DNA of 64,000 nt, taken from Bacteroidales bacterium (GTDB lineage: Bacteria > Bacteroidota > Bacteroidia > Bacteroidales > F082). The notes beneath the pieces are model-generated. The model had not been told where the DNA came from. It did no database searches and saw nothing but the letters and a program-made list of their open reading frames with translations. Shown here in pieces: positions 11,101-61,634 of this stretch. The position numbers were made by a program, and so were the translations under genes. The number at the start of each line of letters is the position of its first letter. Positions within the stretch are counted from its first letter, which is position 1. The stretch lies in the NCBI GenBank assembly GCA_017530365.1, contig JAFXMK010000011.1, positions 1 through 64,000 on the forward strand. The letters run 5' to 3'.

Positions 11101-12916
11101 GGACGAGACCGAATGGAACATCCAATACAAAAAAACTTCCGACAGTGAATGGAGCAACCCAATTCATGTCACCGAACTCCCAACCACAGAAAGCCCGTTT
11201 GTTTTGACGGGACTCCAGCGCGGCCTTGAATATGAGGCAAGAATCCAAGCCTATTGCGATGCCGAAGATCAGAGTGAATGGAACTCTATGCCTGTCAGTT
11301 TCACCACCGACTGCGGCGTGTGGCCCATTGATACAGAGAACTCTATGTTTGAAGACTTCAGTGATTCCAATTTCCCACCAGCGTGCTGGAATTGGATTAG
11401 AGTGAACAATTACTATGGTTGGCAATACAGTTCCGGACAATACAATCCGTTGGATCAGCAAGGAACAGCATATAGCTATTGGCCTACAGGCGAGACGTAT
11501 CTCATCTTGCCTCAAATGCATATCAATGGTGCTGCTAAACTCACTTTCGACATGGTATTCTCTGGCGATGGCTCCGGCGAAGAGAGCTCTGTGGTTTTAT
11601 CAACAACAGGTTATGGAAAGCTTGACTTCACCAACACGTTGTGGACTGCTACGGAATTCCCAAAGACAAAAACAACCATTAGCCTCGACTTGTCAGCATA
11701 CAACAATAGTGATATCTACATTGCATTCAAATACAACGGTGTCGGCACCAGCGGCCGCATGTGGTATATCGACAACGTCCAAGTCTATGTGGGAGAAATC
11801 TTCACCAAGGACATCACCGCCTATACCGAGGGCAGCAACGACCGTTACTACCTCATCGCTTCCCCTGTCGGAGAAGTGAATCCCGAGAATGTGTCGAACA
11901 TGTTGGCAAACAACTATGACCTCTACTACTTCGACCAAAGCAAGGAGCTGGAATGGATCAATTATGAGGGAACCGATGGCAACTTCAACCTTATTCCAGG
12001 TAAAGGTTATCTCTATGCCAACAGCGGAAATGTCACATTGAGGTTTGTCGGACAACCTTACAACGGAGACGGACAGATTAGTTTGGACAAGGTTTCTGGA
12101 GCTGAGTTCGAAGGATGGAACCTCATCGGTAATCCTTTCGGAACCAACGCTACATTGGACCTGCCATACTACAGAATGAATGCCGACGGCACTGCGCTTA
12201 ATGCCACTACCGAAACGACAGCTGTCGCTCCCATGGAAGGCGTGTTCGTAATAGCTACAACAGATGACCAAAAGGCTACTTTCACTGCGACACGTATTTC
12301 GCCAAAATCAGTCCCCATGCTCAACATCAATATCAATCGCAACCAAGGCACAACCATTGACAATGCCATCATCCGCTTTGACGAAGGAGGAATCCTGCCC
12401 AAGTTCCAACTCAATCCGAACAGCACCATGATTTATATTCCGGAAAACAGCCAAGACTACGCCATAGTGCGCAGTACAGGAAGCGGTGAACTCCCCGTCA
12501 ACTTCAAGGCAACGAGAAATGGACGCTATTCCATCAGTGTAAACGCCGAAGACGTGGAAGTGAATTACCTGCATCTGATCGACAACCTCACTGGAAACGA
12601 CGTTGACTTATTGGCTTCAGGAAGCTATGAGTTTGAAGCCAAAACGACCGACTACGCTAGCCGATTCAAACTGATGTTCAATGTGAATGAAGACAACTTG
12701 AACAATCAAGACAACTTTGCCTTCTACCACAACGGCGAGATCATCATCAATGGCCAAGGTGCTCTCCGAGTCTTCGACGCTCTCGGCCGCCAACTCTTCA
12801 CAAAGGATCTCTCACCTTTAACCTCTCACCTCTTACCTTTCACCTCCCCCGGTGTGTATGTGATCCAGCTGATTCAAAACAATGAGATCAAGACCCAGAA
12901 GATCGTGATTCCATAA
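8174..12916 (+). CDS. Giant T9SS-sorted surface protein with fibronectin-III and cleaved-adhesin domains
   Basis: 1580 residues. A signal peptide (cleaved near QAKAQ) is followed by a beta-rich domain (30-210) and an alternation of fibronectin type III modules (each with a C.kP....t....t..l.W core, e.g. near 215, 495, 585, 685, 955) and jelly-roll 'cleaved adhesin/MAM-like' modules. The latter are recognised by a Y.qnFE start and an (A/Y).IDN(I/V).(I/V) end, for example NIDDVTVEL and YIDNVQVYV. The C-terminus is a T9SS type A domain ending TQKIVIP. Cleaved-adhesin modules are known from Porphyromonas gingipains and haemagglutinins. The likely role is adhesion on the cell surface. Inside the sorting domain, residues about 1546-1559 are encoded by a heptamer repeat array. 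Confidence 0.88.
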   Translation: MFHTQTTVKKALFLLLLMALLMPWQAKAQETLTVCDGTDVNQYIPLYGYYFDAFTKGECILPASELTDMVDGTITRLTFYAKTVATTNSTWGTANQKVFIKEVTGTTLGGSFSGTEGATIVFDGLLTMPTTSTDGYTITFTEGYVYNGGNLLIGIYNDAKGKYNKVEWYGTSGLTSGVSAYGNNSSSLGSCSYTAQSFLPKTTFTYEPASTGGCAKPKQFNASDITAHTATLTWTAGDDGQSNWDVYVTEDATIIPDENTTPTYQVTECSKDLSGLTAQTTYYVYVRAVCAADDKSKWANKTFATTREALTVDSNNPYSQNFETSNDWGFENGTLTNTWCWGSAVNNGGEKSMYVSKDGGTTYEYEHGNTAIYASKLFGFAQGTYTFFFDWNAKGESTYDYLRVALAPGDVEFTAGNNLYPGVGTTTLPNNWIALDGGNKLNLSDGWQTQSAEATVSGTYTMVFIWRNDGSGGTTTPAAIDNISISYMTCPRPTGLTASNITGRTATLSWTENGTATNWVLQYATNNAFTENFTETNVSGTASTELTGLTPETKYYTRVKSMLGTDESSWSDVKDFTTLATCPKPTLSYVTNSNTAYTGSVSWTGSTADAYEVAYRPKNDFDPSDMTLTDVTRVQLENVSEYTYTLQNLSPETKYYIYIQANCGAEDGVSSWSNRVTFTTLATCLAPSYLTDEEVTSNSVFLSWTKGAEDQDAWQFRYKKTSDSEYTYVLVENNPSNSYELTGLEPATSYDVNVRAWCGGDDYSKWSLANQSLDKSITTACAEVMLPYTCDFEGALETGGHFSTYSVPKCWNRIEMQYGSYSPYTYYPYVYSQSSDAHGGTKSLRMYRTPDSANQTIILPAIDDSYQMSDLQIRFWAKAGSSNNTLSVGIMDGESFTEVQSVEGVSTSYAEFTVPLTSYAGNGRNIAIKCGSSSSYLYYNIDDVTVELIPTCLIPTGLTCTGVDVNSASFVWQPGKDETEWNIQYKKTSDSEWSNPIHVTELPTTESPFVLTGLQRGLEYEARIQAYCDAEDQSEWNSMPVSFTTDCGVWPIDTENSMFEDFSDSNFPPACWNWIRVNNYYGWQYSSGQYNPLDQQGTAYSYWPTGETYLILPQMHINGAAKLTFDMVFSGDGSGEESSVVLSTTGYGKLDFTNTLWTATEFPKTKTTISLDLSAYNNSDIYIAFKYNGVGTSGRMWYIDNVQVYVGEIFTKDITAYTEGSNDRYYLIASPVGEVNPENVSNMLANNYDLYYFDQSKELEWINYEGTDGNFNLIPGKGYLYANSGNVTLRFVGQPYNGDGQISLDKVSGAEFEGWNLIGNPFGTNATLDLPYYRMNADGTALNATTETTAVAPMEGVFVIATTDDQKATFTATRISPKSVPMLNININRNQGTTIDNAIIRFDEGGILPKFQLNPNSTMIYIPENSQDYAIVRSTGSGELPVNFKATRNGRYSISVNAEDVEVNYLHLIDNLTGNDVDLLASGSYEFEAKTTDYASRFKLMFNVNEDNLNNQDNFAFYHNGEIIINGQGALRVFDALGRQLFTKDLSPLTSHLLPFTSPGVYVIQLIQNNEIKTQKIVIP
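12809..12848 (-). repeat. Heptamer array A (AGGTGAG-like), in frame in a T9SS sorting domain
   Basis: Read on the minus strand, the stretch is built of AGGTGAG-, AGGTTAA- and AGGTAAG-like units. On the coding strand it gives the Ser/Thr/Leu/Pro-rich peptide SPLTSHLLPFTS, between the 'LGRQLFTKDL' and 'PGVYVIQL' strands of the C-terminal domain. Confidence 0.75.
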
Positions 12917-12952
12917 GCAACTTCATTCTATATATTTAGTTTTGTGTTTTTT

Positions 12953-12980
12953 GGCCGGCAGCGAGCTGCCGGCCATTTTT
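12953..12980 (+). terminator. Terminator after the giant surface-protein gene
   Basis: Perfect 10-bp stem GGCCGGCAGC / GCTGCCGGCC with a two-base GA spacer at its tip, followed by ATTTTTG; also preceded by a T-run, so it may be bidirectional. Confidence 0.85.
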
Positions 12981-12992
12981 GTCAATAACCCA

Positions 12993-16054: not shown

Positions 16055-17052
16055 TAGTCCAAGATTTCAAAACCTTCCGTGGCGAAAGTCTCCAGTTCGC
16101 CTTTGTCGTTCACAAAGATATAATAGGCCTCGACTCCCTCCATGGTCTTGATCAGCTCCAGCGACTTCTCCATGCCCATCACCATGCAGATGGAAGCCAA
16201 GGCATCCGCCCATACTGCGTTCTCGGCCAAGACTGTGACACTGAGTACCTGGTGTTCCACAGGATATCCCGTAGTTGGGTCGATACAATGCGAATATCGC
16301 TTGCCGTCACGCTCCACGTATTTCCGGGTGCTGCCCGAGGTAACCAAGCCCTTGTCGAACAAGGGAACACGGGTCTGCACCACACGCTCATCATCCATAT
16401 TCTCAGCAGGCTTCTCAATGCCCACCACCCAAGGCTTCCCGTCAGGTTTTCCACCTTTGGCCATAATCTCTCCTCCAGTATCCACCAAGTAATGCTTCAC
16501 CCCTTCGCTGTCGAGGTATGATGCAATCCTATCAGAAGTATAGCCTTGTGCCACAGCATTGAAATCGAGTTGCATGGCGAGGTTGTCTTTGATCAGTTTG
16601 CCGTTTTCAATACGGACCTTTCGATAATCCACCAAGGTCTTTAGGCTGTCGATAAGGTGAGAGGTAAGAGATGAGAGGTTAGAGGTTTTAGCACTGAAGC
16701 CCCAGGCGGCTACCAAGGGAGAGATGGTAGGATCGAAATAACCACCAGAAAGCTCAGCTGCTTGCTGGGCAATATTAAAATTATCGATGAAGATCTGGTC
16801 CAATTCGACCTCTTCGTTGCGATTCACCTTACAGATGATCGAGCTGTCCACCCACAGGTTGACCGACAGATCCACCGCATGGAAGATGGAATCGATACCT
16901 TGTTGGAAGTTGCGGCCTTGCTCATCGTAATAGGTAATGGCATAGTACGAGCCTTGGGCAAAGCCCTCAAGATACATTCTCTGAGGCTGTTTCACACATG
17001 ACATCGTCATTGCGAGGAGAAACGACGAAGCAAACCATAAAAACCTTCTCAT
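16054..17052 (-). CDS. apbE: FAD:protein FMN transferase (ApbE), lipoprotein
   Basis: 332 residues. A short signal sequence ends in MTMSC (C19), a weak lipobox typical of ApbE lipoproteins. Family blocks follow: GFAQGSYYAITYYDE, VDLSVNLWVDSS, an LDFNAVAQGYTSDRIASYL block, YLVDTGGEIMAKGGKPDGKPW, VTSGSTRKY, YSHCIDPTTGYPV and WADALASICMVMG. ApbE attaches FMN from FAD to threonines of Nqr/Rnf subunits and other flavoproteins outside the membrane. Residues about 6-16 of the signal are encoded by a dispersed GATTGCTTCG-type repeat, and residues 122-134 by a heptamer array, so this gene has taken in two repeat families. It lies in an operon with 4-nt and 1-nt overlaps. Confidence 0.93.
   Translation of the reverse strand: MRRFLWFASSFLLAMTMSCVKQPQRMYLEGFAQGSYYAITYYDEQGRNFQQGIDSIFHAVDLSVNLWVDSSIICKVNRNEEVELDQIFIDNFNIAQQAAELSGGYFDPTISPLVAAWGFSAKTSNLSSLTSHLIDSLKTLVDYRKVRIENGKLIKDNLAMQLDFNAVAQGYTSDRIASYLDSEGVKHYLVDTGGEIMAKGGKPDGKPWVVGIEKPAENMDDERVVQTRVPLFDKGLVTSGSTRKYVERDGKRYSHCIDPTTGYPVEHQVLSVTVLAENAVWADALASICMVMGMEKSLELIKTMEGVEAYYIFVNDKGELETFATEGFEILD
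16654..16689 (+). repeat. Heptamer array B (AGGTNAG units), in frame in apbE
   Basis: Five 7-nt units in perfect register: AGGTGAG, AGGTAAG, AGATGAG, AGGTTAG, then a decayed AGGTTTT. The apbE coding strand reads the pyrimidine side, giving K-T-S-N-L-S-S-L-T-S-H-L without stops. The peptide lies between the conserved 'PLVAAWGFSA' and 'DSLKTLVDYRKV' blocks, a surface loop in ApbE structures. Confidence 0.85.
17005..17035 (+). repeat. Dispersed repeat, copy A (CGTCATTGCGAG ... CGAAGCAAAC), in apbE signal sequence
   Basis: 31-nt copy of the family that also occurs at 37876-37906 (same long form) and at 21631 and 39252 (27-nt form). The arms GCAAT/ATTGC form an imperfect inverted repeat. Read on the apbE strand it encodes residues about 6-16 of the signal sequence, the hydrophobic core FASSFLLAMT. 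Confidence 0.85.
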
Positions 17053-20181: not shown

Positions 20182-20182
20182 C

Positions 20183-21419: not shown

Positions 21420-24281
21420 TTGAAACGAGCAGTACCACATATTTATTTGATTTTTACGACAATATTTTTGTCGCTGCTGCTCGTTTTGACAATGCATTCA
21501 TGCAAAACACCCGCCTCGGTGGTTGAGGAGAAGCACCCCGAACCCAAACCTGAGATCGATACGCTTTGGCTTGAACCCATCGGGGAAGCCATCGACACGA
21601 ACGTCATGATGAGTGATGCTGACAGTAGCGGATTGCTTCGCTTAGCTCGCAATGACGTGACAGATTCCATTCGTCCACAAAACGACTCCATCATTCGGAC
21701 CAAAAAAACTTTCACCCCACCAAAACAGAAAAAAGACAGCCCTTTCGAAGTCAAGGTAATCCGCACTGCCGTTGACTCCGTCATCCAAAACGTGAAAGAA
21801 AAGGTGATCCATTACTATGGCAACGCTGTTGTGAAATACGACGACATCACTTTGGAAGCCAACTACCTGAAATTCGATCTCAACACCAACATCGTCACGG
21901 CGGCAGGCCTCCCCGACTCCACAGGAAAGATCCAAGGCTCACCCAAGTTCACGCAAGGCGAGACCAAGTTTGAAGCGGCTGAAATGTCCTATAACTTCCA
22001 GACCAAGAAAGGCATCATCCACAAAGTGTGGACAGAGGAAAGTGGCGGCTATATCCACGGCGAGAAGATCAAACGGATGGACGACAACACCATCAACATC
22101 AAGTCGGGAGGCTTCACCACCTGCAATCTCAAGGACCATCCGCATTATCAATTCCGTTTCAACAAAGCCAAGATCATCCCTGACAACATGATCGTCACCG
22201 GTCCGGTGTATGTCACCATCATGGACGTGCCATTACCCATCGGTCTGCCATTTGCCATGTTCCCCAACACCAAAGGACAGAAATCGGGAATCATCGTCCC
22301 CACCTACGGCGAATCGGCCAACCGCGGCTTCTATCTCGAGAACGGAGGCTATTACTGGGCCATCAACGAACACTACGATTTCCAGCTGCTGGGCGACATC
22401 TACACAAGAGGCAGCTGGGCCATCAAGCCCACTTTCCGATACAACCAACGGTACAAGCACAACGGATCGTTGGCCTTGGGCTTCGCAGTCAACAAGATTG
22501 GCGACGAAGGTGCTGCTGACTACAACAAAAGCACCGACTTCAAAGTGAAGTGGACCCACAAGCAAGACCCTAAAGCCCATCCGCGGCACAGCTTCTCTGC
22601 CGATGTAAACATCATCAGTTCGAACTTCAACAAATACAACGCCACCACTTCCAACGAATACCTGAGCAACACCTTCAAAAGCAGCGTCGCCTACCAAACC
22701 AACTTCGGCGGAAAGGTGTTTCTTACCCTCAACGCCAGCCATAGCCAGAATACATTGACCAAGCAAGTCACCGTCTCCCTTCCTGAGATGACCTTGACGG
22801 TCAACCGCATCTATCCTTTCCAGAAACTCGGAAAGCCTGGCAAGAAACGCTGGTACAAAGATCTGAACGTCAACTACACGATGAATGCCAAAAACTACAT
22901 CTCTGGCATCGACACCCTGCTCTTTCCCAGCGGATGGTCCGAGAACCTGTCATGGTGGTTCAACAACCTTCAGAAATATACCCAAAACGGCATCAAGCAC
23001 ACCCTCCCGATCAACCTCCCCGTCAAGCTGTTCAAGCATTTTACTTGGACCACTTCCTTCACGCTCAACGACTACATGTACTTCAGCCGCACAGAGCGTC
23101 AGTGGTTGCAGGCTGACAGCATCCTGAAGATCGACACCATCAGAGGATTCCGCAACCTCGTTGATTTCAACGTGTCAAGCAACATCACCACCAAGATCTA
23201 CGGCATGGTCAACTTCAGGAAAGGTCCCATCCGCGCCATCCGTCATGTGTTCACACCTACCATCGGATTCAGCTACCGTCCCGACTTCAGCGACCCAAAG
23301 TGGAACGTGTATAACACTTACATCGACGCCAACGGCGAAGTCCAGACCTATAACATGTTCATGAATGCATTGTATGGCACCCCATCGCAAAACCGTTCGG
23401 GCATGCTTACCTACAGCTTCAACAACACGTTGGACATGAAGGTGCCTTCGAAATCCGACACCATCACGGGCATGAAAAAAGTAGTGCTGCTCGAATCACT
23501 GGGCTTCTCTGGCAACTACGATCTTACAAAGGATTCCCTCAATTTCTCTTACATGTCGGTGAGTGCCCGAACCACACTGTTCAAGAAACTGAAGGTGACT
23601 TACTCCAGCGTTTGGGATCCGTATGTCATCGATTCTTTGGGGAAACGCGTTAACCGTTTTGAGATCGTAGAAAACCAACGCCTATTCCACAAAAACAGCT
23701 CTGCATGGAACTTCAGCCTCAGCTGGTCGCTCAGCCAAAACGACTTGAAGAAGTGGAAAAAGGAGGACGGACAGTTAAAAACGGAAAACGGGAAACGAAA
23801 AAAAAGGAACGGAGAGCCTTCGGAATTCAGTTTCCAAGATGAGATCACCCGAAGAGCCAACGGCAGTGAATTCGTCACCGAAGGAGAGCTCGACGACATT
23901 TTGGGCAATCCCAAATCCTACATAGACTGGAACACCCCATGGTCTCTGACCTTGAGTTACAACCTGCGCCATTCTTCCAACCTGACCTACGCTGCCTTCA
24001 TGGGCATCGCCACCAACCAAGTAGTACAGACCCTGACGATCAACGGCGATGTCAGCCTTTCCCCGAAATGGAAGGTAAGCTTCTCCACAGGATGGGACTT
24101 CACCAACCACGGACTTTCCTATACTTCGCTCAACGTCTATCGCGACCTCCATTGTTGGGAGATGCGCTTCAACTGGATCCCCATCGGCAACTACAAAAGC
24201 TGGAACTTCACCATCAACGTGAAGGCACAAGCGTTGCAGGACCTGAAGCTGACAAAGAAGAAAGACTATAGGGACAATTGA
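21420..24281 (+). CDS. lptD: LPS-assembly outer-membrane protein LptD, Bacteroidota type
   Basis: 953 residues. The only start that keeps the basic-hydrophobic signal (MKRAVPHIYLIFTTIFL...) is TTG at 21420, as an in-frame TAG lies just upstream; the next ATG at 21491 would delete the signal. An N-terminal OstA/LptA-like beta-jellyroll (about 120-250: YGNAVVKYDDITLEANYL, GETKFEAAEMSYNF, GGYIHGEKI) leads to the LptD barrel (VPLPIGLPFAMFPN, SGIIVPTYGES, then many amphipathic strands to the end). The protein inserts lipopolysaccharide in the outer leaflet. Residues 71-80 come from a dispersed 27-nt repeat, and 786-798 (K-T-E-N-G-K-R-K-K) from a heptamer array; both lie in variable loops. The TGA stop abuts array C. 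Confidence 0.92.
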   Translation: MKRAVPHIYLIFTTIFLSLLLVLTMHSCKTPASVVEEKHPEPKPEIDTLWLEPIGEAIDTNVMMSDADSSGLLRLARNDVTDSIRPQNDSIIRTKKTFTPPKQKKDSPFEVKVIRTAVDSVIQNVKEKVIHYYGNAVVKYDDITLEANYLKFDLNTNIVTAAGLPDSTGKIQGSPKFTQGETKFEAAEMSYNFQTKKGIIHKVWTEESGGYIHGEKIKRMDDNTINIKSGGFTTCNLKDHPHYQFRFNKAKIIPDNMIVTGPVYVTIMDVPLPIGLPFAMFPNTKGQKSGIIVPTYGESANRGFYLENGGYYWAINEHYDFQLLGDIYTRGSWAIKPTFRYNQRYKHNGSLALGFAVNKIGDEGAADYNKSTDFKVKWTHKQDPKAHPRHSFSADVNIISSNFNKYNATTSNEYLSNTFKSSVAYQTNFGGKVFLTLNASHSQNTLTKQVTVSLPEMTLTVNRIYPFQKLGKPGKKRWYKDLNVNYTMNAKNYISGIDTLLFPSGWSENLSWWFNNLQKYTQNGIKHTLPINLPVKLFKHFTWTTSFTLNDYMYFSRTERQWLQADSILKIDTIRGFRNLVDFNVSSNITTKIYGMVNFRKGPIRAIRHVFTPTIGFSYRPDFSDPKWNVYNTYIDANGEVQTYNMFMNALYGTPSQNRSGMLTYSFNNTLDMKVPSKSDTITGMKKVVLLESLGFSGNYDLTKDSLNFSYMSVSARTTLFKKLKVTYSSVWDPYVIDSLGKRVNRFEIVENQRLFHKNSSAWNFSLSWSLSQNDLKKWKKEDGQLKTENGKRKKRNGEPSEFSFQDEITRRANGSEFVTEGELDDILGNPKSYIDWNTPWSLTLSYNLRHSSNLTYAAFMGIATNQVVQTLTINGDVSLSPKWKVSFSTGWDFTNHGLSYTSLNVYRDLHCWEMRFNWIPIGNYKSWNFTINVKAQALQDLKLTKKKDYRDN
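21631..21657 (+). repeat. Dispersed repeat, copy D (short form), in lptD
   Basis: 27-nt copy, GATTGCTTCG arm at the left and CGCAATGACG at the right around a CTTAGCT centre. It encodes 'GLLRLARNDV' in the low-complexity region between the LptD signal and the OstA-like domain. The nearest relative is the copy at 39252-39278, which differs by one base in the centre. Confidence 0.85.
23779..23812 (+). repeat. Heptamer array (AAACGGA type), in frame in lptD
   Basis: Units AAACGGA, AAACGGG, AAACGAA, then decayed AAAAAAG and GAACGGA, in perfect 7-nt register. It is translated as the lysine-rich stretch TENGKRKKRNGE in a periplasmic or surface loop of the barrel. Confidence 0.75.
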
Positions 24282-24307
24282 GTTAGGAGTAAGAAGTAAG
24301 AATAAAA
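24280..24307 (+). repeat. Heptamer array C (GAGTTAG type) between lptD and the next gene
   Basis: Four units, GAGTTAG, GAGTAAG, AAGTAAG and AATAAAA, starting within the lptD stop codon (TGA 24279-24281) and filling most of the gap to the start at 24316. Confidence 0.85.
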
Positions 24308-48592: not shown

Positions 48593-48672
48593 AGGATTTA
48601 GACTTGACTCTGCAAAGATATGAATTATTTAAACTAAAGTATGAAAGATACAGATAATTGTATGAAGTTACC

Positions 48673-48701
48673 TTGAAAGTCATAAAAATAAATTACTTTT
48701 G
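48673..48701 (+). promoter_or_regulatory. Promoter of the biotin carboxylase gene
   Basis: TTG at 48673-48675, 18-nt spacer, TACTTTTG at 48694-48701 (exact). An ATG at 48703 is too close to be translated from this transcript, so the ATG at 48721 is preferred. Confidence 0.7.
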
Positions 48702-48720
48702 CATGAAGAAAGAGAAAGTA

Positions 48721-50748
48721 ATGAATACCAAAAAAATCAATAAAATCCTAATTGCTAACCGAGGGGAGATTGCTGTGCGCATTATCCGCACCTTGAGACG
48801 GCTTCACATCGAGAGTGTGGCGGTGTTTGCCGACAACGATGCCGAAGCGTTGCACCGTAGGCTCGCCGACGAGGCCTATCCCCTGGGAAATGGCAGTCTC
48901 AAGGACACCTATCTCAACATACAGAAGATCATCGACGCCGCTTTGGATGCTGGTGTCGATGCCATTCACCCAGGCTATGGTTTCCTCTCAGAGAATCCCG
49001 ATTTCGCTGAAGCCTGCGCCGCAAACAACCTCATCTTCATCGGTCCCGATGCCGACACCATGCGGCTCATGGGCAACAAGATCGCTGCAAGGAAGGTTGC
49101 CATCGAAAATGACATCCCCGTCACCTTCGGCCTTACGGGCAGCTTAGAGGATATCATGGTCAAGGCCGACACACTACCCTACCCGGTTCTCATCAAGGCA
49201 GCAGCAGGCGGTGGCGGCAAAGGCATGCATATAGTCAGAAAGAAAGACGATCTCAAAGACGAACTGGAACGCGCTTCCCGAGAAGCAGAGAAATACTTCG
49301 GCGACGGCACAGTCTTCGTGGAGCAATATATCGAAAACCCGCGCCATATCGAAGTGCAGATTCTCGCCGATCATCACGGCAACATCATACACCTTTATGA
49401 GCGCGAATGCACCATCCAACGGCGTTACCAGAAGATCATCGAGGAGTCGCCCTCTCCCACTTTGACCGAAGAGAAACGGCAACAGCTGCTGGCCACTGCC
49501 GTGAAGCTCTGTAAAGGCATCGGCTACAAAAACGCCGGCACCGTGGAGTTCATCGTGGATCAAGACCTGAACTTCTATTTCTTGGAAGTGAACACACGCA
49601 TCCAAGTGGAACATCCCGTTACCGAGATGCGCACTGGCATCGACATTGTGGAGGAACAGATCCGCATCGCACGCGGCAAGGAGATGGGCTGGACACAAGA
49701 TATGATCCAAGCCCAGGGACATGCCATTGAGATGCGCGTCTATGCCGAAGATCCCGAAAACGGCTTCCTGCCTACTCCTGGAAAAGTGACGGCATACCAT
49801 GAGCCACAGGTCAGAGGTGCCCGTGTCGATAGCAGCATCGATGGTCCCTGCACCATCAGCGAAGCCTACGATCCCATGATCGCCAAGCTCATCTGCCATG
49901 GCAAGACCCGCCAAGCTGCCATTGAGACAGCGCAACATGCCCTGAAAGAGTTCATCATACAAGGCTTGACCACCAACAAAGCCTACCTTTGGGAAGTCAT
50001 CAAAAACCAGGATTTTGTTGACAACAAGATCGACACTTCCTTCTGTGCCTCCCATCAAGAAGCACTCATAGAGGCCTTAAATGATAGTCGCAACAATTTA
50101 AACATCAATGATATAGCAGTGTCATTCCTGCTTTATGACTTCTGCAAAAAACGCTTTGAACATCAAATTGAAAACGTTTGGGAAGACATCGGCTTTTGGC
50201 GTTTCCACAGTCACTTCACCGTTGACGTGGAAGGCCAAAAGATTCCTGTCCATATCACACATTGGGAAGCGGAAAGCGGAAAGTTGAAAGTGGAAAGTCC
50301 CCCCTCTGACCCCTCACCTCTAACCTCTCACTTCTCCGCTGAACTCATCGGACACAATGGACACCAGCTGAAGATCATGATTAACGGAAAGAATGAAGTT
50401 GTCTATTGTTCCGTCAATGATGAGCAGAAAACCATCGTGAACTTCCGTGGACTGAACTTCAGTTGTTTCCGAACCGACCAGCTCAACGATACCCTCGACT
50501 ATTCTTGCAAAGAGAATGTGAACGACAAATCGACCTTGATCTCGCCCATGCCTGGCAAGGTGGTGAAGATCAACGTAAAGGAAGGCGACGAGGTAAATGC
50601 AGGTACGGTAATGATTGTGGTGGAGGCCATGAAGATGGAAAACAATATCGTCGCCACTGCCAAAGCCAAGGTAAAACGCATTTTGGTCACTGAAGGTGAG
50701 ATGGTGGACAATAAGATGCAACTTATAGAGTTAGAAGAAAGAAGTTAG
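48721..50748 (+). CDS. Biotin carboxylase plus biotin-carrier subunit of an acyl-CoA carboxylase
   Basis: 675 residues. Biotin carboxylase domain (about 1-450): KILIANRGEIAVRIIRTLR, HPGYGFLSENPDFAEAC, ATP-grasp VLIKAAAGGGGKGMHIVR, EQYIENPRHIEVQILAD, LEVNTRIQVEHPVTEM. A middle BT-like region follows (450-600) and a biotinyl domain ends the protein (SPMPGKVVKINVKEGD, VEAMKMENNI with K638). This one-chain layout is that of 3-methylcrotonyl-CoA and propionyl-CoA carboxylase alpha subunits. No carboxyltransferase beta subunit is in the window. Residues about 515-540 come from two opposed heptamer arrays, and the last residues (ELEERS) and stop from another. It is probably cotranscribed with the acyl-CoA dehydrogenase. 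Confidence 0.9.
   Translation: MNTKKINKILIANRGEIAVRIIRTLRRLHIESVAVFADNDAEALHRRLADEAYPLGNGSLKDTYLNIQKIIDAALDAGVDAIHPGYGFLSENPDFAEACAANNLIFIGPDADTMRLMGNKIAARKVAIENDIPVTFGLTGSLEDIMVKADTLPYPVLIKAAAGGGGKGMHIVRKKDDLKDELERASREAEKYFGDGTVFVEQYIENPRHIEVQILADHHGNIIHLYERECTIQRRYQKIIEESPSPTLTEEKRQQLLATAVKLCKGIGYKNAGTVEFIVDQDLNFYFLEVNTRIQVEHPVTEMRTGIDIVEEQIRIARGKEMGWTQDMIQAQGHAIEMRVYAEDPENGFLPTPGKVTAYHEPQVRGARVDSSIDGPCTISEAYDPMIAKLICHGKTRQAAIETAQHALKEFIIQGLTTNKAYLWEVIKNQDFVDNKIDTSFCASHQEALIEALNDSRNNLNINDIAVSFLLYDFCKKRFEHQIENVWEDIGFWRFHSHFTVDVEGQKIPVHITHWEAESGKLKVESPPSDPSPLTSHFSAELIGHNGHQLKIMINGKNEVVYCSVNDEQKTIVNFRGLNFSCFRTDQLNDTLDYSCKENVNDKSTLISPMPGKVVKINVKEGDEVNAGTVMIVVEAMKMENNIVATAKAKVKRILVTEGEMVDNKMQLIELEERS
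50265..50338 (+). repeat. Two opposed heptamer arrays inside the biotin carboxylase gene
   Basis: 50271-50298 is four GGAAAGT-like units (purine on the coding strand), followed at 50310-50338 by ACCTCTA/ACCTCTC-like units (pyrimidine on the coding strand, so AGGTTAG-type on the other). The encoded peptide (A-E-S-G-K-L-K-V-E-S-P-P then P-S-P-L-T-S-H) lies in the region linking carboxylase and biotin domains. Confidence 0.8.
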
Positions 50749-50762
50749 AAGCAAGAAGTAAG
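50728..50762 (+). repeat. Heptamer array D (GAGTTAG/AAGTTAG type) at the end of the biotin carboxylase gene
   Basis: Five units: GAGTTAG, AAGAAAG, AAGTTAG, AAGCAAG, AAGTAAG. The first two and the start of the third encode the last residues, and the TAG inside the third unit (50746-50748) is the stop codon. The array ends 3 nt before the next ATG at 50766. Confidence 0.88.
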
Positions 50763-50765
50763 AAT

Positions 50766-51908
50766 ATGAACTTTGATTTAACAAAAGAACAAGAAGCCTT
50801 GCGGCAGAAGGTAAGAGATTTCGCCGAGGCAGAAGTGAAACCTGTAGCCCGTTACAACGACGAGCACCAGCATTTCGACACTGAACTGACTCTCAAGATG
50901 GGTGAGCTAGGCCTGTTAGGCATGACCGTACCGAAAGAATATGGCGGTCAGGGATTGGATAACCTCAGCTATATCATCGCCGTGGAAGAACTCGCTCGTG
51001 TGGATGGCTCCACCGCAGCCACCATTGCTGCCGACAACTCGTTGGGCATCGGTCCCATCAAAGACTACGGCACTGAGGAGCAGAAACGAAAGTATCTGCC
51101 CCAACTCTGCAAAAATAAGCTCTGGGGCTTCGGACTGACAGAAGAGGACGCTGGCAGTGACTCGCGTGGCACCAAGACCACGGCCAAGCTCGAAGGCGAC
51201 ACCTGGCTGCTCAACGGCACCAAGATCTTCATCACCAACAGCGCTACGCCGATCACCTTAGGCACGAGCGTACAAGCCGTCTCTGGCGAAAAGGACGGCA
51301 AGCCCCAGTTCACCGCCTTGCTGGTTGAGAACTCCGTCCCAGGATTCACACAGACCCCGATGGATGACAAGATGATGTGGCGTGCCTCGAACACTGGCAA
51401 ACTCGTGTTTGACAACGTAAGGTTGCCCAGGGAGTGCATCTTGGGTGAGCCAGGGGAAGGCTCCCACATGATGTTGGCCACTCTCGACTCCGGACGTCTC
51501 TCCATCGCTGCCATGGGCCTCGGCTGTGCCCAAGGCGCCTACGAGATGGCGCTCGCATACTCCAAGAAACGCGTCCAGTTCGGCAAACCCGTTTGCAAGT
51601 TCCAAGCAGTGGCCTTCAAACTCGCCGACATGGCCATGAAAGTCGAAGCAGCACGCAACCTGCTGTACCATGCCTGCTGGCTGAAAGACCAGCACCGTCC
51701 CTTCGGCAAGGAAGCCGCCATGGCCAAGCTCTATTGCTCCGAAGTCGCCGCCGAAGTGTGCGACAACGCCGTGCAAGTGATGGGTGGACATGGACTCCTC
51801 AAAGAGTTCGACATGGAACGCTTCTACCGCGATCAACGCATCCTTCAAATCGGAGAAGGCACTTCCGAGATCCTGAGACTGGTTATTTCTAGAGCAATTG
51901 GATGTTAA
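50766..51908 (+). CDS. Acyl-CoA dehydrogenase
   Basis: 380 residues, standard for short/medium-chain acyl-CoA dehydrogenases. N-terminal helices (FDLTKEQEALRQKVRDFAEAEVKPVA), GLLGMTVPKEYGG, FGLTEEDAGSDSRGTKTTA (FAD-binding), middle beta-domain (LNGTKIFITNSATP), and the C-terminal helical domain with FYRDQRILQIGEGTSEILR where E364 is the likely catalytic base. It oxidises an acyl-CoA at C2-C3 and gives electrons to an electron-transfer flavoprotein. Isovaleryl-, butyryl- or other short-chain CoA could be the substrate. It follows the carboxylase gene by 17 nt. Confidence 0.93.
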   Translation: MNFDLTKEQEALRQKVRDFAEAEVKPVARYNDEHQHFDTELTLKMGELGLLGMTVPKEYGGQGLDNLSYIIAVEELARVDGSTAATIAADNSLGIGPIKDYGTEEQKRKYLPQLCKNKLWGFGLTEEDAGSDSRGTKTTAKLEGDTWLLNGTKIFITNSATPITLGTSVQAVSGEKDGKPQFTALLVENSVPGFTQTPMDDKMMWRASNTGKLVFDNVRLPRECILGEPGEGSHMMLATLDSGRLSIAAMGLGCAQGAYEMALAYSKKRVQFGKPVCKFQAVAFKLADMAMKVEAARNLLYHACWLKDQHRPFGKEAAMAKLYCSEVAAEVCDNAVQVMGGHGLLKEFDMERFYRDQRILQIGEGTSEILRLVISRAIGC

Positions 51909-51909
51909 G

Positions 51910-51937
51910 GAGTGAGGAGTTAGAAGTTAGGAGTAAT
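51910..51937 (+). repeat. Heptamer array E (GAGTTAG type) after the acyl-CoA dehydrogenase gene
   Basis: Units GAGTGAG, GAGTTAG, AAGTTAG, GAGTAAT, starting 2 nt after the TAA stop (51906-51908) and ending 16 nt before the next start at 51954. Confidence 0.85.
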
Positions 51938-56420: not shown

Positions 56421-59400
56421 ATGAAGCAGAATTACAAAGAGTATAAGCAGCTGAATCTCACCGAGACAGCCAATGAAATCCGCAAATACTGGGAAGATAA
56501 CGACACCTTCCAAAAGAGTCTCGACAACCGTGACAAGGATAATGCCTTCGTGTTCTTCGAAGGTCCGCCGAGTGCCAACGGCACCCCTGGCATCCACCAT
56601 GTGATGGCCCGTTCCATCAAGGACGTGGTATGCCGCTACCAGACCTTGAAAGGCAAACACGTGGTACGCAAAGCCGGCTGGGACACCCACGGCCTGCCTG
56701 TGGAACTCGGCGTAGAAAAGAAACTCGGCATCACCAAGGAAGACATCGGCAAGAAGATTAGCGTCGATGACTACAACCGTGCCTGCCGCGAGGAAGTGAT
56801 GAAATACAAGGATATGTGGGACGACCTCACCCGTAAGATGGGCTATTGGGTCAACCTCAACGATCCTTACATTACCTTCACCAACGACTACATCGAAACC
56901 TTGTGGTTCCTGCTGAAAGACCTCTACAACAAAGGCCTGCTCTATAAAGGCTACACCATCCAGCCCTATTCACCTGCCGCTGGCACCGGACTCAGCTCCC
57001 ACGAACTGAACATGCCGGGCTGCTACCGCGACGTGAAGGATTTGACATGCGTGGCGCTGTTTAAGTTAGGAGTTAGGAGTGAGGAGTTAGGAGTAGGAGA
57101 AAGTCTTACCACTTACGCGATTGCATGGACGACCACACCTTGGACTTTGCCAAGCAATACGGCTTTGTGCGTTGGTCCCAATATTGACTATGTGCTGCTG
57201 AAGACCATGCACCCCTACACTGAGGAGCCTTGCTACATCTTGATGGCCAAAGCCTTGGTAGGCACCATGTTCAAGGAAGCCCCTGAGATTGTCAAGGAGT
57301 TCAAAGGAAGCGATTTGGTCGGTATTGAATATGAGCAACTCGTCCCATGGGTCAACCCAGGTGAAGGCGCCTTCCGCATCATCCCTGGCGACTATGTTAC
57401 CACCGAAGATGGTACGGGCATCGTCCATATCGCTCCGACCTTTGGCGCTGACGATAAACGCGTTGCCGCCGCCGCAGGCATCCCGCCTTTGCAGATGATC
57501 GACAAGGACGGCAAAGCCCAACCGATGGTAGATCGTACTGGCAAATTCTGGCGTATTGAGGACCTGGATCCTGAGTTTGTCAAGAACTGCATGGACGTGG
57601 AAGCCTACCGCCCCTACGCCGGACAGTTCGTCAAGAACGCCTACGATCCTACCAAGACCGAGAAGGACAAGAGCCTCGACGTTGACATCGTGATGCTCCT
57701 CAAGGAACAAGGCAAGCTCTTCAAGAGTGAGAAACATGTCCACAACTACCCACACTGCTGGCGCACCGACAAACCCGTGCTCTATTATCCCCTCGACAGC
57801 TGGTTCATCAAGACCACGGCCCTGAAAGACCGTATGATCGAGCTTAACAAGACCATCAACTGGAAGCCTGAAGCCACCGGCAGCGGTCGTTTCGGCAACT
57901 GGCTCGAGAACCTGGTGGACTGGAACCTCTCCCGTTCTCGCTACTGGGGCACTCCGTTGCCTATTTGGCGCACTGAGGACGGCAAGGAAGAGATCTGCAT
58001 CGGCAGTGTCGAAGAGCTCCGCAACGAGATCGAAAAATCCATCAAGGCAGGATTCATGACCTCGAATCCATACGCTTCAGAAGACTACACCAAGTTCGAC
58101 CTGCATAGACCGTATATCGATGGCGTCATCCTCTGCTCCGCTAGCGGCAAGAAGATGTTCCGTGAGCCTGATTTGATTGACGTGTGGTTCGACAGCGGTG
58201 CCATGCCGTATGCCCAATACCACTACATGGGCAAGGAAGGTCAGCTAGGCAAGGATGTGTTTCCAGCAGATTTCATCGCCGAAGGCGTCGACCAAACACG
58301 TGGCTGGTTCTTCACTCTACATGCCATCGCCACAATGTGCTTCGACAGTGTGGCTTACAAGAACGTCATCTCCAATGGCTTGGTGCTCGACAAAAACGGC
58401 AACAAGATGTCGAAACGTCTGGGCAATGCCGTTGACCCCTTCGGTGCCATCGAGAAATATGGTGCCGATGCCGTGCGTTGGTACATGATCACCAACTCCC
58501 AGCCTTGGGACAACCTGAAATTCGACGAGGCCGGTGTTGACGAAGTGCGCCGTAAGTTCTTCGGAACACTCTATAACACTTACGCCTTCTTTGCACTGTA
58601 TGCTAACATCGACAAGTTCGACTATAAGGAAGCCAATCTGCCATACGCCGAGCGTCCCGAGATCGACCGATGGATCCTGTCGGAGTTGAACTCCCTGATA
58701 CTCACCGTTGACGAAGCCTATAACGACTACGAGCCCACCCGTGCCGGTCGCGCCATTGCCGACTTCGTGGATGCCCACCTCAGCAACTGGTACGTGCGTC
58801 TCTCACGACGTCGTTTCTGGAGAAGCGATGATGACAAGGACAAGCTCTCTGCCTATCAGACCCTTTACACCTGCTTGGAGACCGTGGCTCGTCTCAGCTC
58901 TCCGATAGCACCGTTCTTCAGCGAGCAGCTCTACCGCGACCTCAACAACGCCACTGGCAAAAATGCCGCCGAGTCCGTACATCTTACCGACTTCCCGGTA
59001 GCCGACAACAAGCTCATCGACAAGGCATTGGAGGAACGCATGGAAGCCGCACAGCTGATTTCTTCGCTGGTGCTCTCACTGCGTAAGAAAGCCAACATCC
59101 GCGTACGTCAGCCTCTGTCGAAGATCATGATCCCCGTGGCCAACGAAGAGATGAAGGCGCAGCTTGAGAAGATCTCCCACCTCATCATGAGTGAGGTCAA
59201 CATCAAAGGCATCGAGTTCCTTGCCCCCGACAACAACATTCTGGTGAAGAACGTGAAGCCCAACTTCAAGACCTTGGGCAGGAAGTATGGCAAACAGATG
59301 AAACAGATCCAGAACTATTTCGCCAACATGAGCCAAGACGAGATCCATGCCTACGAAAAGAGCAACGGCACCCACTTGGAGGTGGATGGCGTCGATGTTG

Positions 59401-59774
59401 AGCTGACCCTTGAAGACGCTCTGATCTCCACCCAAGACATTCCAGGCTGGGCTGTCACGTCACAGGACAACTACACCGTCGCTTTGGACATGACCATCAC
59501 CGAAGACCTCTTCAACGAAGGCCTCGCCCGTGAAATCGTCAACCGCATCCAGACCTTGCGTAAGAACTCAGGCTTGGAAGTTACCGACCGGATTGAGGTA
59601 TTCATCGAGAAGAACGAAAAGATTGAACCCGCCGTCAAAGTATTCAGCAGCTACATCTGCGCTGAGACGTTGGCCACCGCCATCCAAATCGTCGATAAAC
59701 TCGAAGGCGATGTCTTGGAAGACGAACTTACCGAGAATGTCAAGGTCAGGATGAAGATTCAAAAAAACAATTAA
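56421..59774 (+). CDS. ileS: Isoleucyl-tRNA synthetase
   Basis: 1117 residues. HIGH region EGPPSANGTPGIHHVMARS, editing-domain T-rich motif WTTTPWTLPSN, GTGIVHIAPTFGADD, WNLSRSRYWGTPLPIW, KMSKS variant NKMSKRLGN, anticodon-binding domain (SNWYVRLSRRRFWRS) and C-terminal extension (EIVNRIQTLRKNSGLEVTDRIEVFIE). It is of the long type common in this phylum. Residues about 215-229 (KLGVRSEELGVGE) are encoded by five heptamer units just before the editing motif. This loop is of variable sequence in relatives, so function should be kept. Confidence 0.97.
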   Translation: MKQNYKEYKQLNLTETANEIRKYWEDNDTFQKSLDNRDKDNAFVFFEGPPSANGTPGIHHVMARSIKDVVCRYQTLKGKHVVRKAGWDTHGLPVELGVEKKLGITKEDIGKKISVDDYNRACREEVMKYKDMWDDLTRKMGYWVNLNDPYITFTNDYIETLWFLLKDLYNKGLLYKGYTIQPYSPAAGTGLSSHELNMPGCYRDVKDLTCVALFKLGVRSEELGVGESLTTYAIAWTTTPWTLPSNTALCVGPNIDYVLLKTMHPYTEEPCYILMAKALVGTMFKEAPEIVKEFKGSDLVGIEYEQLVPWVNPGEGAFRIIPGDYVTTEDGTGIVHIAPTFGADDKRVAAAAGIPPLQMIDKDGKAQPMVDRTGKFWRIEDLDPEFVKNCMDVEAYRPYAGQFVKNAYDPTKTEKDKSLDVDIVMLLKEQGKLFKSEKHVHNYPHCWRTDKPVLYYPLDSWFIKTTALKDRMIELNKTINWKPEATGSGRFGNWLENLVDWNLSRSRYWGTPLPIWRTEDGKEEICIGSVEELRNEIEKSIKAGFMTSNPYASEDYTKFDLHRPYIDGVILCSASGKKMFREPDLIDVWFDSGAMPYAQYHYMGKEGQLGKDVFPADFIAEGVDQTRGWFFTLHAIATMCFDSVAYKNVISNGLVLDKNGNKMSKRLGNAVDPFGAIEKYGADAVRWYMITNSQPWDNLKFDEAGVDEVRRKFFGTLYNTYAFFALYANIDKFDYKEANLPYAERPEIDRWILSELNSLILTVDEAYNDYEPTRAGRAIADFVDAHLSNWYVRLSRRRFWRSDDDKDKLSAYQTLYTCLETVARLSSPIAPFFSEQLYRDLNNATGKNAAESVHLTDFPVADNKLIDKALEERMEAAQLISSLVLSLRKKANIRVRQPLSKIMIPVANEEMKAQLEKISHLIMSEVNIKGIEFLAPDNNILVKNVKPNFKTLGRKYGKQMKQIQNYFANMSQDEIHAYEKSNGTHLEVDGVDVELTLEDALISTQDIPGWAVTSQDNYTVALDMTITEDLFNEGLAREIVNRIQTLRKNSGLEVTDRIEVFIEKNEKIEPAVKVFSSYICAETLATAIQIVDKLEGDVLEDELTENVKVRMKIQKNN
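57063..57097 (+). repeat. Heptamer array F (GAGTTAG type), in frame in ileS
   Basis: Units AAGTTAG, GAGTTAG, GAGTGAG, GAGTTAG, GAGTAGG. Each unit shifts the frame by one, so a TAG falls in frame once in three units. At exactly that position (third unit, 57077-57083) the T is replaced by G, giving AGT GAG instead of AGT TAG. Confidence 0.9.
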
Positions 59775-59833
59775 TAAATTGTTGGTGTAAGGATTTTTTT
59801 GTATTTTAGCACTTTCGTAGGACCTAAAATAAA

Positions 59834-60238
59834 ATGGTTATGGAAGAGAAGATCAAAGTTACTCCTACTGTGCGGTATTCCGACGAGGAGTTAGAGGAGT
59901 TTAAGGAATTGATCCTGCAGAAACTTCAACAGGCACGCGAAAACCTCGCGCTGCTCAGTGAAAATATTGCCGGCGGTGAAAACAGCACTGACGACACCGC
60001 TCCGACGTTCAAGATCTTGGAAGAAGGCTACTCCGTATCACAAAAAGAGGAGAACGCCAAACTGGCCGCTCGCACCGAGAAATACATCCAGAATCTGGAG
60101 TTTGCCTTGATGCGTATCGAGAACAAGACATACGGCGTCTGCCGTGCCACCGGCAAGTTGATTCCTAAGGAAAGACTGCGCTGTGTCCCCACCACGACGA
60201 TCTGTCTTGACGCTAAAATGAAGGAAAAGAAAAAGTGA
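59834..60238 (+). CDS. TraR/DksA-family protein with degenerate zinc finger
   Basis: 134 residues (MVMEEK start; an ATG two codons later is also possible). N-terminal coiled coil (DEELEEFKELILQKLQQARENLALLSENI), a C-terminal YGVCRATGKLIPKERLRCVP block that matches the DksA zinc finger, but two of the four cysteines are changed (C-x-x-T at the first pair and C-L-D-A at the second), so zinc is probably not bound in the usual way. This degeneracy is common in Bacteroidota. DksA-type proteins act on RNA polymerase with ppGpp. It precedes lspA with a 4-nt overlap (GTGA). Confidence 0.87.
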   Translation: MVMEEKIKVTPTVRYSDEELEEFKELILQKLQQARENLALLSENIAGGENSTDDTAPTFKILEEGYSVSQKEENAKLAARTEKYIQNLEFALMRIENKTYGVCRATGKLIPKERLRCVPTTTICLDAKMKEKKK

Positions 60239-60825
60239 CGAAGACAAAACGCAAGGGCCTGGTTGGCTCTTTCATCATCATTCTCGCTGTGTTGGTAATC
60301 GACCAGATCCTCAAGATCTGGGTCAAGACACACATGGAGCTTGGCCAAGAGATTCCTGTCCTGGGCAACTGGTTCAAGTTGCTTTTCGTCGAGAATCCCG
60401 GCATGGCTTTCGGCTGGATGGGAGGTGGAGGCGCCATGAAAGCCTTTTTGAGCATTTTTAGGATTGTTGCCGTCGTGGCACTATTCTATCTTTTGTTCCG
60501 CCTTTCCAAGAAGAACACCAAGTTCGGTGTGATGTTCGGCATCGCCCTCATCACAGCAGGCGCCATGGGCAACATCATTGACAGCGTGTTTTATGGCGAA
60601 GTCTTCCACTATGCGGGATGGCTTCATGGCAAGGTGGTCGATATGCTGTATTTTCCCATCATCGACATCGCTCGGGAAGACAACAGCTGGCTGCCCAACT
60701 TCTTCTTTGGGCCCGATGGACATTTCATCTTTTTCAGACCCATCTTCAATTTCGCCGACGCCGCCATTACGGTGGGCGTGTTTTACATGATCCTCTTCCA
60801 GTGGAAGTGGATGAAGAGTTTATAG
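60235..60825 (+). CDS. lspA: Lipoprotein signal peptidase LspA
   Basis: 196 residues from a GTG at 60235 that overlaps the upstream TGA (GTGA). Four transmembrane helices. Catalytic aspartates D116 (AMGNIIDSVFYG) and D175 (IFNFADAAITVGV); conserved VENPGMAFG region. It cuts prolipoprotein signal peptides before the lipid-modified Cys. The gene is longer than E. coli's (164) because of an extra loop of about 30 residues (GEVFHYAGWLHGKVVDMLYFP ... FGPDGHFIFFRPI), as is usual in this phylum. Several substrates (apbE, the lipoprotein at 34403 and others) are in the window. Confidence 0.96.
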   Translation: MTKTKRKGLVGSFIIILAVLVIDQILKIWVKTHMELGQEIPVLGNWFKLLFVENPGMAFGWMGGGGAMKAFLSIFRIVAVVALFYLLFRLSKKNTKFGVMFGIALITAGAMGNIIDSVFYGEVFHYAGWLHGKVVDMLYFPIIDIAREDNSWLPNFFFGPDGHFIFFRPIFNFADAAITVGVFYMILFQWKWMKSL

Positions 60826-60857
60826 ATAAAAGATAAGAGATAAAAGATAAAAGTTAT
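60823..60857 (+). repeat. Heptamer array G (GATAAAA type) between lspA and gpmA
   Basis: Units TAGATAA, AAGATAA, GAGATAA, AAGATAA and AAGTTAT. The first starts on the TAG stop of lspA (60823-60825) and the last runs into the gpmA start at 60856, so the array occupies the whole gap. Confidence 0.9.
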
Positions 60858-61599
60858 GAAGAAACTCATTTTAATCAGACATGGCGAGAGCCAATGGAAT
60901 AAGCTCAACCTGTTCACTGGATGGACCAATGTAGATCTTTCCGAAAAAGGCATTCAGGAAGCCATTGAAGCCGGCAAGGTGTTGAAAGATAACGGCTACA
61001 AACCAGAGATCTGCTTCACCTCGTACCTGAAAAGAGCCATCAAGACTTTGAACTATGTCCTTGACACCATGGACATGGACTGGCTGCCGGTTTACAAGAC
61101 CTGGCGTCTGAACGAGAAGTCGTACGGACAGTTGCAAGGCCTTGACAAGAAGATGACCGCCGAGAAATACGGCGACGAGCAGGTGCGCTTATGGCGCCGT
61201 GCCTTCGACGTGCGCCCTCCAGCGTTGGACATGAACGACCCCAAGAGTCCCCGTATGGATCCCCGCTATGCAGAACTTACCGACGACCAGATTCCGTTGA
61301 CCGAAGCACTCTGCGACACCATCGAACGTGTGATGCCCTATTACAAGGACCATATCATGAAAGCCTTCGAGACCCATGACGAAGTGATGGTAGTTGCCCA
61401 CGGCAACAGCCTCCGCGGCGTCGTGAAAGTGCTCAAGAACATGTCAAACGACGAGATCATCGCCTTCAATATCCCTACTGGAATCCCTTATATCTTTGAG
61501 TTCGACGACAACATGAACCTGACGAAGGACTTCTTCCTGGGCGATCCCGAGAAAGTCGCAGCACTGATGGCAGCAGTGGCTAATCAGGGGAAGAAATAA
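60856..61599 (+). CDS. gpmA: 2,3-bisphosphoglycerate-dependent phosphoglycerate mutase
   Basis: 247 residues, standard. Active-site motifs: LIRHGESQWN with H9, the FTGWTNVDLSEKG stretch, SYLKRAIKTL, RLNEKSYGQLQGLDK, and VVAHGNSLRG with H182. It interconverts 3- and 2-phosphoglycerate in glycolysis. Both flanks are occupied by GATAAAA-type heptamer arrays (60823-60857 and 61600-61634). Confidence 0.97.
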   Translation: MKKLILIRHGESQWNKLNLFTGWTNVDLSEKGIQEAIEAGKVLKDNGYKPEICFTSYLKRAIKTLNYVLDTMDMDWLPVYKTWRLNEKSYGQLQGLDKKMTAEKYGDEQVRLWRRAFDVRPPALDMNDPKSPRMDPRYAELTDDQIPLTEALCDTIERVMPYYKDHIMKAFETHDEVMVVAHGNSLRGVVKVLKNMSNDEIIAFNIPTGIPYIFEFDDNMNLTKDFFLGDPEKVAALMAAVANQGKK

Positions 61600-61634
61600 G
61601 AGATAAAAGATAAAAGATAAGAGATAAAAGATAA
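61600..61634 (+). repeat. Heptamer array H (GATAAAA type) after gpmA
   Basis: Five units in exact register, GAGATAA, AAGATAA, AAGATAA, GAGATAA, AAGATAA. It begins directly after the TAA stop (61597-61599) and ends 3 nt before the next ATG at 61638. It is nearly the same as array G, implying spread within this locus. Confidence 0.92.

Follow-up and report, generated by a model that had tools for sequence, protein, structure and literature searches.

Why do conserved genes of a bacterium, and the gaps between them, carry short purine-rich arrays with a 7-nt period, and how do such arrays reach their sites? The question is raised by a 64,000-nt stretch of DNA (the window; positions 1 to 64,000 of contig JAFXMK010000011.1, assembly GCA_017530365.1) from an uncultured Bacteroidales bacterium; ruminant guts are the source of many named relatives of one window protein. 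An original prediction, made from the letters alone, had listed eleven such arrays and had likened them to the short tandemly repeated repetitive sequences (STRRs) of cyanobacteria. The eleven arrays were confirmed as a real observation. The explanation that we prefer, with moderate confidence, is that they are a multi-family form of STRR-like heptamer repeats that would spread by copying between sites together with 7-nt slippage, and would be filtered by selection.

The seven-nucleotide period and its units

Tandem Repeats Finder returned period-7 rows at or adjoining all eleven listed places. The best lag-7 score in the 60-nt stretches around each array was 16–19 of 21, whereas control stretches from the rest of the window (n = 3863) averaged 7.3 and did not exceed 14 of 21. 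Seven arrays were called in the window at a detector setting of ≥17 of 21; in a count at three thresholds, 6, 4 and 3 lag-7 arrays were obtained, and the window, dinucleotide-shuffled twenty times, gave none. A 451-kb sample of the host genome (G000) contained 60 lag-7 arrays (≥17 of 21); each of the other lags between 4 and 13 had at most 7, and three shuffles of the same sample had none at lag 7. A 7-nt tandem unit therefore stands far above chance and above other unit lengths in this sample, in which the density figures lean high because contigs C8, C9 and C22 were picked for matches of one pattern. Lag 14 gave 37 arrays, as the double of 7. Lag 8 was the second commonest, and several of its 7 arrays were octamers like AACTGAAC; octamer arrays of the TCAGTTAT / AACTGAAC type lie at G000 C22:113547, 121353 and 128787 and at C9:21718. 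Four of the five array-holding coding genes lost the period when their codons were shuffled, which rules out a codon-usage artefact, though weakly for the array at 23779. There the period was partly retained (mean of 0.42 lag-7 hits per codon-shuffled gene copy at ≥15 of 21), and this is the weakest array of the set. The array at 24280 has only about three units.

The units were less strict than had been claimed; they vary, often at one or two fixed columns and, by inspection, often at the position after the pyrimidine. Their purine-rich character held up, with 159 of 206 arrays from 26 sampled genomes of the genus fitting YNRRRRR in some rotation or strand (27.6% for random genomic heptamers), but the orientation is mixed at coding sites, where the purines of the arrays at 12809 and 50303 lie on the minus strand. 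The commonest of the 60 G000 units were AGGAGTT (9), AGGAGTG (7), AAGAAGT (7), AGAGGTT (4), AAAAGAT (4) and AGTTGGC (3). Units cluster by genome, as the original prediction had proposed to check: pairs differing by at most one base made up 18.3% within genomes versus 10.7% between them, an excess reached in 0 of 2000 permutations, and 18.0% versus 9.0% (again 0 of 2000) when the closest relative, G034, was left out. Many units nonetheless recur across several genomes. In these clustering counts, and in the counts of placement, family orientation and AGGAGTN run ends given below, orthologous arrays of G000 and G034 were counted once per genome.

Identical copies and changed units

The exact 29-mer GATAAAAGATAAGAGATAAAAGATAAAAG, which occupies window positions 60825–60853, was found at five places in G000, five in G034 and one in G023 within the sampled DNA, some stretches of which were chosen for pattern matches, a choice that bears on the copy count. 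Nine of the ten pairs of G000 copies have flanks without similarity. An identical 29-nt array at four or more G000 places with unrelated flanks is not explained by slippage in place alone. Array copies also share internal order and ends. Variant units in three-unit arrays follow the order A-G-A in 9 of 16 cases in G000 and 12 of 20 in G020, an excess that 0 of 5000 shuffles reached in either genome. If the three neighbouring G000 copies count as one, the figure is 7 of 14, a weaker result that 23 of 5000 shuffles reach. The last unit of AGGAGTN runs has A as its final base in 16 of 28 G000 runs and 12 of 19 G034 runs. In the same position A was seen in 0 of 55 and 0 of 40 internal units, respectively, and after 37 of 216 and 39 of 157 lone AGGAGT words.

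Families are unevenly spread among species. Matches of GATAARAGATAARAGAT (AARAGAT pattern, overlapping matches counted) numbered 76 in G000, 93 in G034, 74 in G020, 80 in G023 and 47 in G060, and in neighbouring genomes 0 (G004, G013, G062, G010), 1 (G075) or 4 (G061). The pattern occurs in 21 of 60 genus genomes, the next highest count being 12 (G073). A single-gene tree placed G004 as sister of G020 and G061/G062 as sister of G023 with support of 0.98–0.99; the places of G013 (0.57) and of G010/G075 beside G000/G034 (0) were unsupported. AGAGGTK, found in 9 of 60 genomes, is also uneven (79 in G034, 21 in G000). One AARAGAT array is common to seven genomes at the same site and is thus old. 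Three neighbouring gaps hold the identical array in both G000 and G034; in the other mapped genomes the same gaps contain, by eye, AATTTAG, AACGGAG, AAAGGTG, AGTGAAA, other units, or none (1–5 of ten genomes unmapped, depending on the gap).

Orthologous sites were compared in both directions, leaving out pairs whose flanks were unclear (82 in total for all ordered pairs). From G000 to G034, 35 arrays could be mapped, of which 29 had the same unit, 1 differed by two bases, 1 by at least three and 4 were absent (5 ambiguous dropped); the reverse mapping of 30 gave 22 same, 3 differing by two, 2 by at least three and 3 absent (8 dropped). With G020, whose flanks are ~83% identical, 14 G000 arrays mapped as 7 same, 1 same but flipped, 2 differing by two, 4 by at least three and 0 absent (5 dropped), and 14 G020 arrays mapped to G000 as 4 same, 2 differing by two, 4 by at least three and 4 absent (5 dropped). 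Since random array pairs from different genomes differ by a mean of 2.67 bases, arrays whose units differ by two or more bases are hardly more alike than unrelated ones. Close relatives thus mostly keep the unit, and at greater distance a different unit, or no array, is often seen; at the divergence of G000 and G020, unit drift in place is also possible. Array gain, loss and unit exchange were all seen, and a pattern of the same arrays with substitutions only, the outcome that the original prediction would have taken as contrary, was absent among the orthologs, with the qualification that the closest pair so largely keeps its units.

Four coding sites were aligned as proteins. The first loop of isoleucyl-tRNA synthetase (IleRS), between FKL and (Y/F)AIAWTTTPWTLPSN, is 9 residues longer than in the solved IleRS 8c8w. 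It contains AGGAGTN units in G000 and G034, AGTTGAG/AGTTTAG in G020 and G075, AACTGAA/AACGGAA with an inverted array in G023, AGTGGAA with an inverted array in G061, AGTTAAA/AGTGAAA with an inverted array in G062, both AGTGGAA and AACTGCC units in G010, and, in G060, a hairpin-like sequence; in G013 and G004 the loop has only a few residues. The second IleRS loop is array-free in G000, G004, G013 and G060, and has an AGAGGTG array in G034. In MurE (NF001126 and TIGR01085, both above cut-offs), the loop in 11 genomes contains AACTGCC-type, AACTCCC, AACGGAA plus inverted, AGTGGAA or CAACTCT units, or none. Near-invariant flanks enclose these differing or absent cassettes at the IleRS and MurE loops (11 genomes). 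The fourth coding site carries an array in G023 alone among six genomes. The reading frame is kept in 39 of 39 sequences at the four sites, array-free ones included, so that there is no frame switching and phase variation was rejected. By eye, hairpin-like sequences occupy relatives' array sites in G020 (for window 50729–50765, where the ortholog is different), in G060 (for 57060–57097) and in G034 (for G000 C22:14279); the one in G060 IleRS is in frame and encodes SPPAPLLEGEG.

Proposed copying between sites and growth in place

The mechanism that we prefer has four steps. Array copies, sometimes with the same variant-unit order and 3′ end, would be copied to unrelated sites of the same genome, as the identical copies suggest; either in-register conversion between arrays or the insertion of array copies would be compatible with this. 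Units of 7 nt would be gained or lost at a site, as strand slippage predicts and as the length differences seen would reflect. An array would then be replaced by another family while the site persists, a change seen between species whose route may be ectopic conversion, loss plus new insertion, or partly drift. Finally, selection would retain arrays where they are harmless or useful, in stop-to-start gaps (mostly purine-sense on the mRNA) and in in-frame protein loops, and certain families would burst in certain species. Changes in copy number, and some of the unit drift, are accounted for by slippage in place. Identical multi-variant arrays with unrelated flanks, shared terminal units and species bursts do not readily follow from it, and are explained by copying between sites. 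That related species often carry different repeats at the same spots suggests that repeat blocks are copied and exchanged.

It is possible, if rather doubtful, that a resident process writes fixed-end heptamer arrays in trans to many sites. Tolerant sites, including the IleRS and MurE loops, would then be docking places with exchanged cassettes, and a family would sweep one species while its sister carries another.

Several observations weigh against spread by copying. The 29-mer copies of G000 are partly clustered: three of the five fall in a 4.3-kb region, and two of the three neighbours are 70% similar over 110 nt downstream, which may come from gene duplication and leaves perhaps four independent copies. 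The third of the neighbouring gaps has a two-unit AARAGAT stretch in G023, an exception to the difference between species. Exchange is not fast, as 29 of 35 arrays keep their unit between G000 and G034. The nearly array-free G013 allele of the first IleRS loop reads AAGTTGAAAGG, and the first unit of several species resembles AGTTGAA; the G013 sequence looks like a seed for this first unit, which would favour growth in place at that loop. Gap lengths were multiples of 7 in 15 of 35 cases inside arrays and also in 7 of 22 cases in flanks, and indel lengths were for this reason discarded as proof of slippage. The mobility put forward in the original prediction is borne out as far as identical arrays at unrelated loci go, but no machinery, target duplication or carried flank was shown for the arrays, the enzyme search having covered reverse transcriptase domains only. 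No terminal inverted repeats were found by eye; some AARAGAT copies are flanked by TTA on both sides (by eye), which is indistinguishable from pre-existing sequence. Profile search identified two reverse transcriptase domains (PF00078) in G000, at C3:54751-55380 and C19:45369-45962; a reverse transcriptase was considered as a possible writer of the arrays.

Some of these points would be expected from ordinary microsatellite evolution, in which purine-rich heptamers duplicate by slippage, drift and homogenise within each array with no copying between sites. We consider this unlikely as the explanation, although it has the G013 seed on its side, and array lengths in G000 and G034 are often 7 or 14 nt apart. 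Flanks that are ~80% identical would also imply a large synonymous divergence, so that two or three changed unit positions need not mean replacement, and an over-representation of heptanucleotides in many bacteria, as well as a proposal of polymerase slippage, is reported in passages of two earlier studies (MacGregor, 2015, PMC4679880; Rehm et al., 2015, PMC4692102). What microsatellite evolution fails to predict is the same 29-nt array with unrelated flanks, the genome-specific bursts and the shared terminal units. It also fails to predict the three-base unit change between G000 and G034 at window site 61591, where G034 has AACTGCT/AACTGCC units despite flanks 95–98% identical to the window. 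CTGCTAACTGCTAA had 11 matches in G034 and 0 in five other genomes searched, G000 being outside that search.

Placement in gaps and coding sequence

The arrays had been described as occupying stop-to-start gaps and protein loops, and this placement was found (Table 1). With ORFs called by a simple longest-ORF caller, the 162 arrays of six genomes divide into 98 between ORFs and 64 within them (by midpoint); arrays are thus dispersed and over-represented between genes, as ORF calls cover 94% of the G000 sample. The 98 comprise 62 in co-directional, 24 in convergent and 9 in divergent gaps, plus 3 unclassed. The co-directional arrays are purine-sense in 49 cases and antisense in 13, and 55 of the 62 start near the end of the upstream ORF, from 25 nt ahead of it to 10 nt past it. 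Many gap arrays are in forward orientation just upstream of a start codon; coding and convergent arrays are not. Within ORFs, 32 arrays are sense and 32 antisense, 15 lie ≤16 nt from the ORF 3′ end, and 44 are >90 nt from both ends. Orientation depends on the family: AARAGAT arrays (n = 14) are gap-sense in 13 cases and divergent in 1, and ARAGGTN arrays in ORFs are antisense in 10 of 10. Among pattern-fetched loci, 26 for AARAGAT (partly the same loci) divide into 15 gap-sense, 3 gap-antisense, 2 convergent, 2 divergent, 1 in an ORF and 3 at contig edges, and 13 of 21 for AGAGGTK are in ORFs, all 13 antisense. Gap arrays may possibly act as a leader or translation-coupling spacer; judged from orientation, their retention in the sense direction would fit tolerance or a leader function.

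This placement is what would be expected if a trans-acting factor or the ribosome favoured heptamers before start codons as a binding or leader motif, with genome differences following the factor. The purine-sense excess in co-directional gaps and the gap-sense orientation of AARAGAT agree with such selection, and a post-transcriptional role has been proposed for TAACTGA arrays in a passage of MacGregor (2015, PMC4679880). Selection alone would not create identical 29-mers, however, and other families also occur in coding sequence, in convergent gaps and antisense; we consider this explanation improbable. An artefact of metagenome assembly or codon usage is hardly credible: the named relatives are metagenome-assembled genomes and many searched genomes are incomplete, but separate genomes share the same sites and arrays, four of five genes lose the period on codon shuffling, and reversed-pattern controls were zero or nearly zero for two patterns.

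Table 1. Heptamer arrays of the window and one array-free orthologous site
Feature	Position	Strand	Context
ARAGGTN-type heptamer array, purines on minus strand	12809..12846	-	near 3′ end of fn3-domain ORF 8174-12916 (Pfam); similar array in G034
AGAGGTN array	16655..16687	+	antisense within ApbE-like gene 16054-17052(-)
AAAACGG array, imperfect	23778..23812	+	within LptD-like gene 21420-24281
Short AGTNAGR array	24280..24306	+	gap from LptD-like gene to ORF 24316-25068
AAAGTGG array	50264..50298	+	within biotin-carboxylase type gene 48658-50748
AGAGGTG array	50303..50336	-	reverse orientation, 4 nt past array 50264..50298 (inverted pair)
AAGAAGN array	50729..50765	+	spans end of 48658-50748 (stop codon inside) to start codon of acyl-CoA dehydrogenase gene 50766-51908
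AGGAGTN array	51906..51936	+	gap upstream of Band-7 gene 51954-52964
AGGAGTN array	57060..57097	+	in frame, loop of isoleucyl-tRNA synthetase (56421-59774, TIGR00392); encodes KLGVRSEELGVGES
Array-free allele (QLGKDV) of second IleRS loop	58230..58260 (approximate)	+	G034: 39-nt array, purines antisense; other species: other units
AARAGAT array	60820..60859	+	fills gap between lspA-like gene 60235-60825 and phosphoglycerate mutase 60856-61599
AARAGAT array	61591..61641	+	between phosphoglycerate mutase and ORF 61638-62339

At single window sites, relatives differ in several ways. Site 16655 holds oppositely oriented AACGGAG arrays in G020 and G023 and none in G075; G020 has no array at 24280 (stop, 2 nt, ATG) and a short AGATAAA stretch at 51906. 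A purine array followed by a nearby pyrimidine array forms an inverted pair that could form a hairpin at window 50264-50336, G000 C22:77645-77734 and G020 C8:70109. The gap between the lspA-like and phosphoglycerate mutase genes, which holds the array alone in the window, is ~1.1–1.2 kb longer in five relatives.

Known heptamer systems and distribution

Cyanobacterial STRRs are dispersed short heptamer arrays with several units per genome. The proposed resemblance to them is supported by the dispersed, multi-unit heptamer arrays, although units and phylum are different here. Rickettsia palindromic elements are repeats carried in frame inside conserved proteins; in-frame residence is alike, but those elements are palindromic and longer, and the arrays here are short heptamers. 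At contingency loci, simple sequence repeats change copy number by whole units to give phase variation; whole-unit change is alike, whereas here the units are imperfect and the examined coding sites stay in frame.

Two described systems are closer in unit length. Rehm et al. (2015, PMC4692102) report GGGAATC / GGGGA(C/T)T heptamer repeats in Xanthomonas and Nostoc, and also mention three Calothrix heptanucleotides. Retention in place between two species (83%) with differing lengths, and inverted pairs, are points of likeness to this type. In contrast, many unit families coexist here, units change at a site, and arrays inside ORFs are frequent (64/162). A G-tract of at least three per unit (GGGNATC, GGGGAYT) is not characteristic of the arrays either: GGG is missing from 58 of 60 G000 consensus units and present in 2 of 60 arrays only (AGTGGGG), so the G-quadruplex idea does not carry over and was rejected as a general explanation. 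The passages of MacGregor (2015, PMC4679880) that treat TAACTGA describe direct repeats in marine Beggiatoaceae, some Cyanobacteria and five Bacteroidetes, in one Bacteroidetes mostly upstream of start codons, and related heptamers that are rarely or never repeated in the main genome. The original suggestion that no equivalent had been described in Bacteroidota was therefore too strong. Those arrays are like many of our gap arrays in their forward orientation just upstream of start codons, with some in coding sequence, but TAACTGA is one minor family among many here. It is the consensus of 1 of 60 G000 arrays, which alone has that unit; this array, at G000 C9:40542-40579, and its ortholog at G034 C13:28152-28208 end directly at ATG. 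The open-access literature matches listed included no account of this genus, nor any of units being exchanged within coding loops.

The period extends beyond the host genome. Stretches from 20 other genus genomes (392 kb), most of them centred on an array-holding gene and to that extent biased towards arrays, gave 44 lag-7 arrays and ≤5 at other lags from 4 to 13. Twenty genomes of other families in the order (291 kb) gave 3 lag-7 and 8 lag-10 arrays; their stretches include one of 422 bases, five more of <8 kb, and that of G050, which was selected around a pattern match. Where loci surrounding a single gene were taken from named genomes, the nearer 50 gave 49 lag-7 arrays (577 kb; next, 8 at lag 11) and the farther 30 gave 11 (323 kb; next, 9 at lag 8). 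Three repeats of AGTTRRR matched 54 of 395 Bacteroidota genomes and 36 of 171 genera, with 27 matches in G000 and 59 in G430 of another family in the same order, a second dense lineage; the reversed control, itself a purine-rich heptamer, matched 11 times in G000 and 50 in G430. By this distribution, heptamer arrays occur sporadically across the phylum and densely in a few lineages.

In this genus, unrelated short peptides occupy the same loops of essential enzymes among close relatives. The origin and role of heptamer repeats are left open in the passages of Rehm et al. (2015, PMC4692102) and MacGregor (2015, PMC4679880) that deal with them. With its many species, several unit families, kept sites and changed units, the genus makes both origin (slippage versus copying) and role (leader, linker or none) testable by strain comparison.

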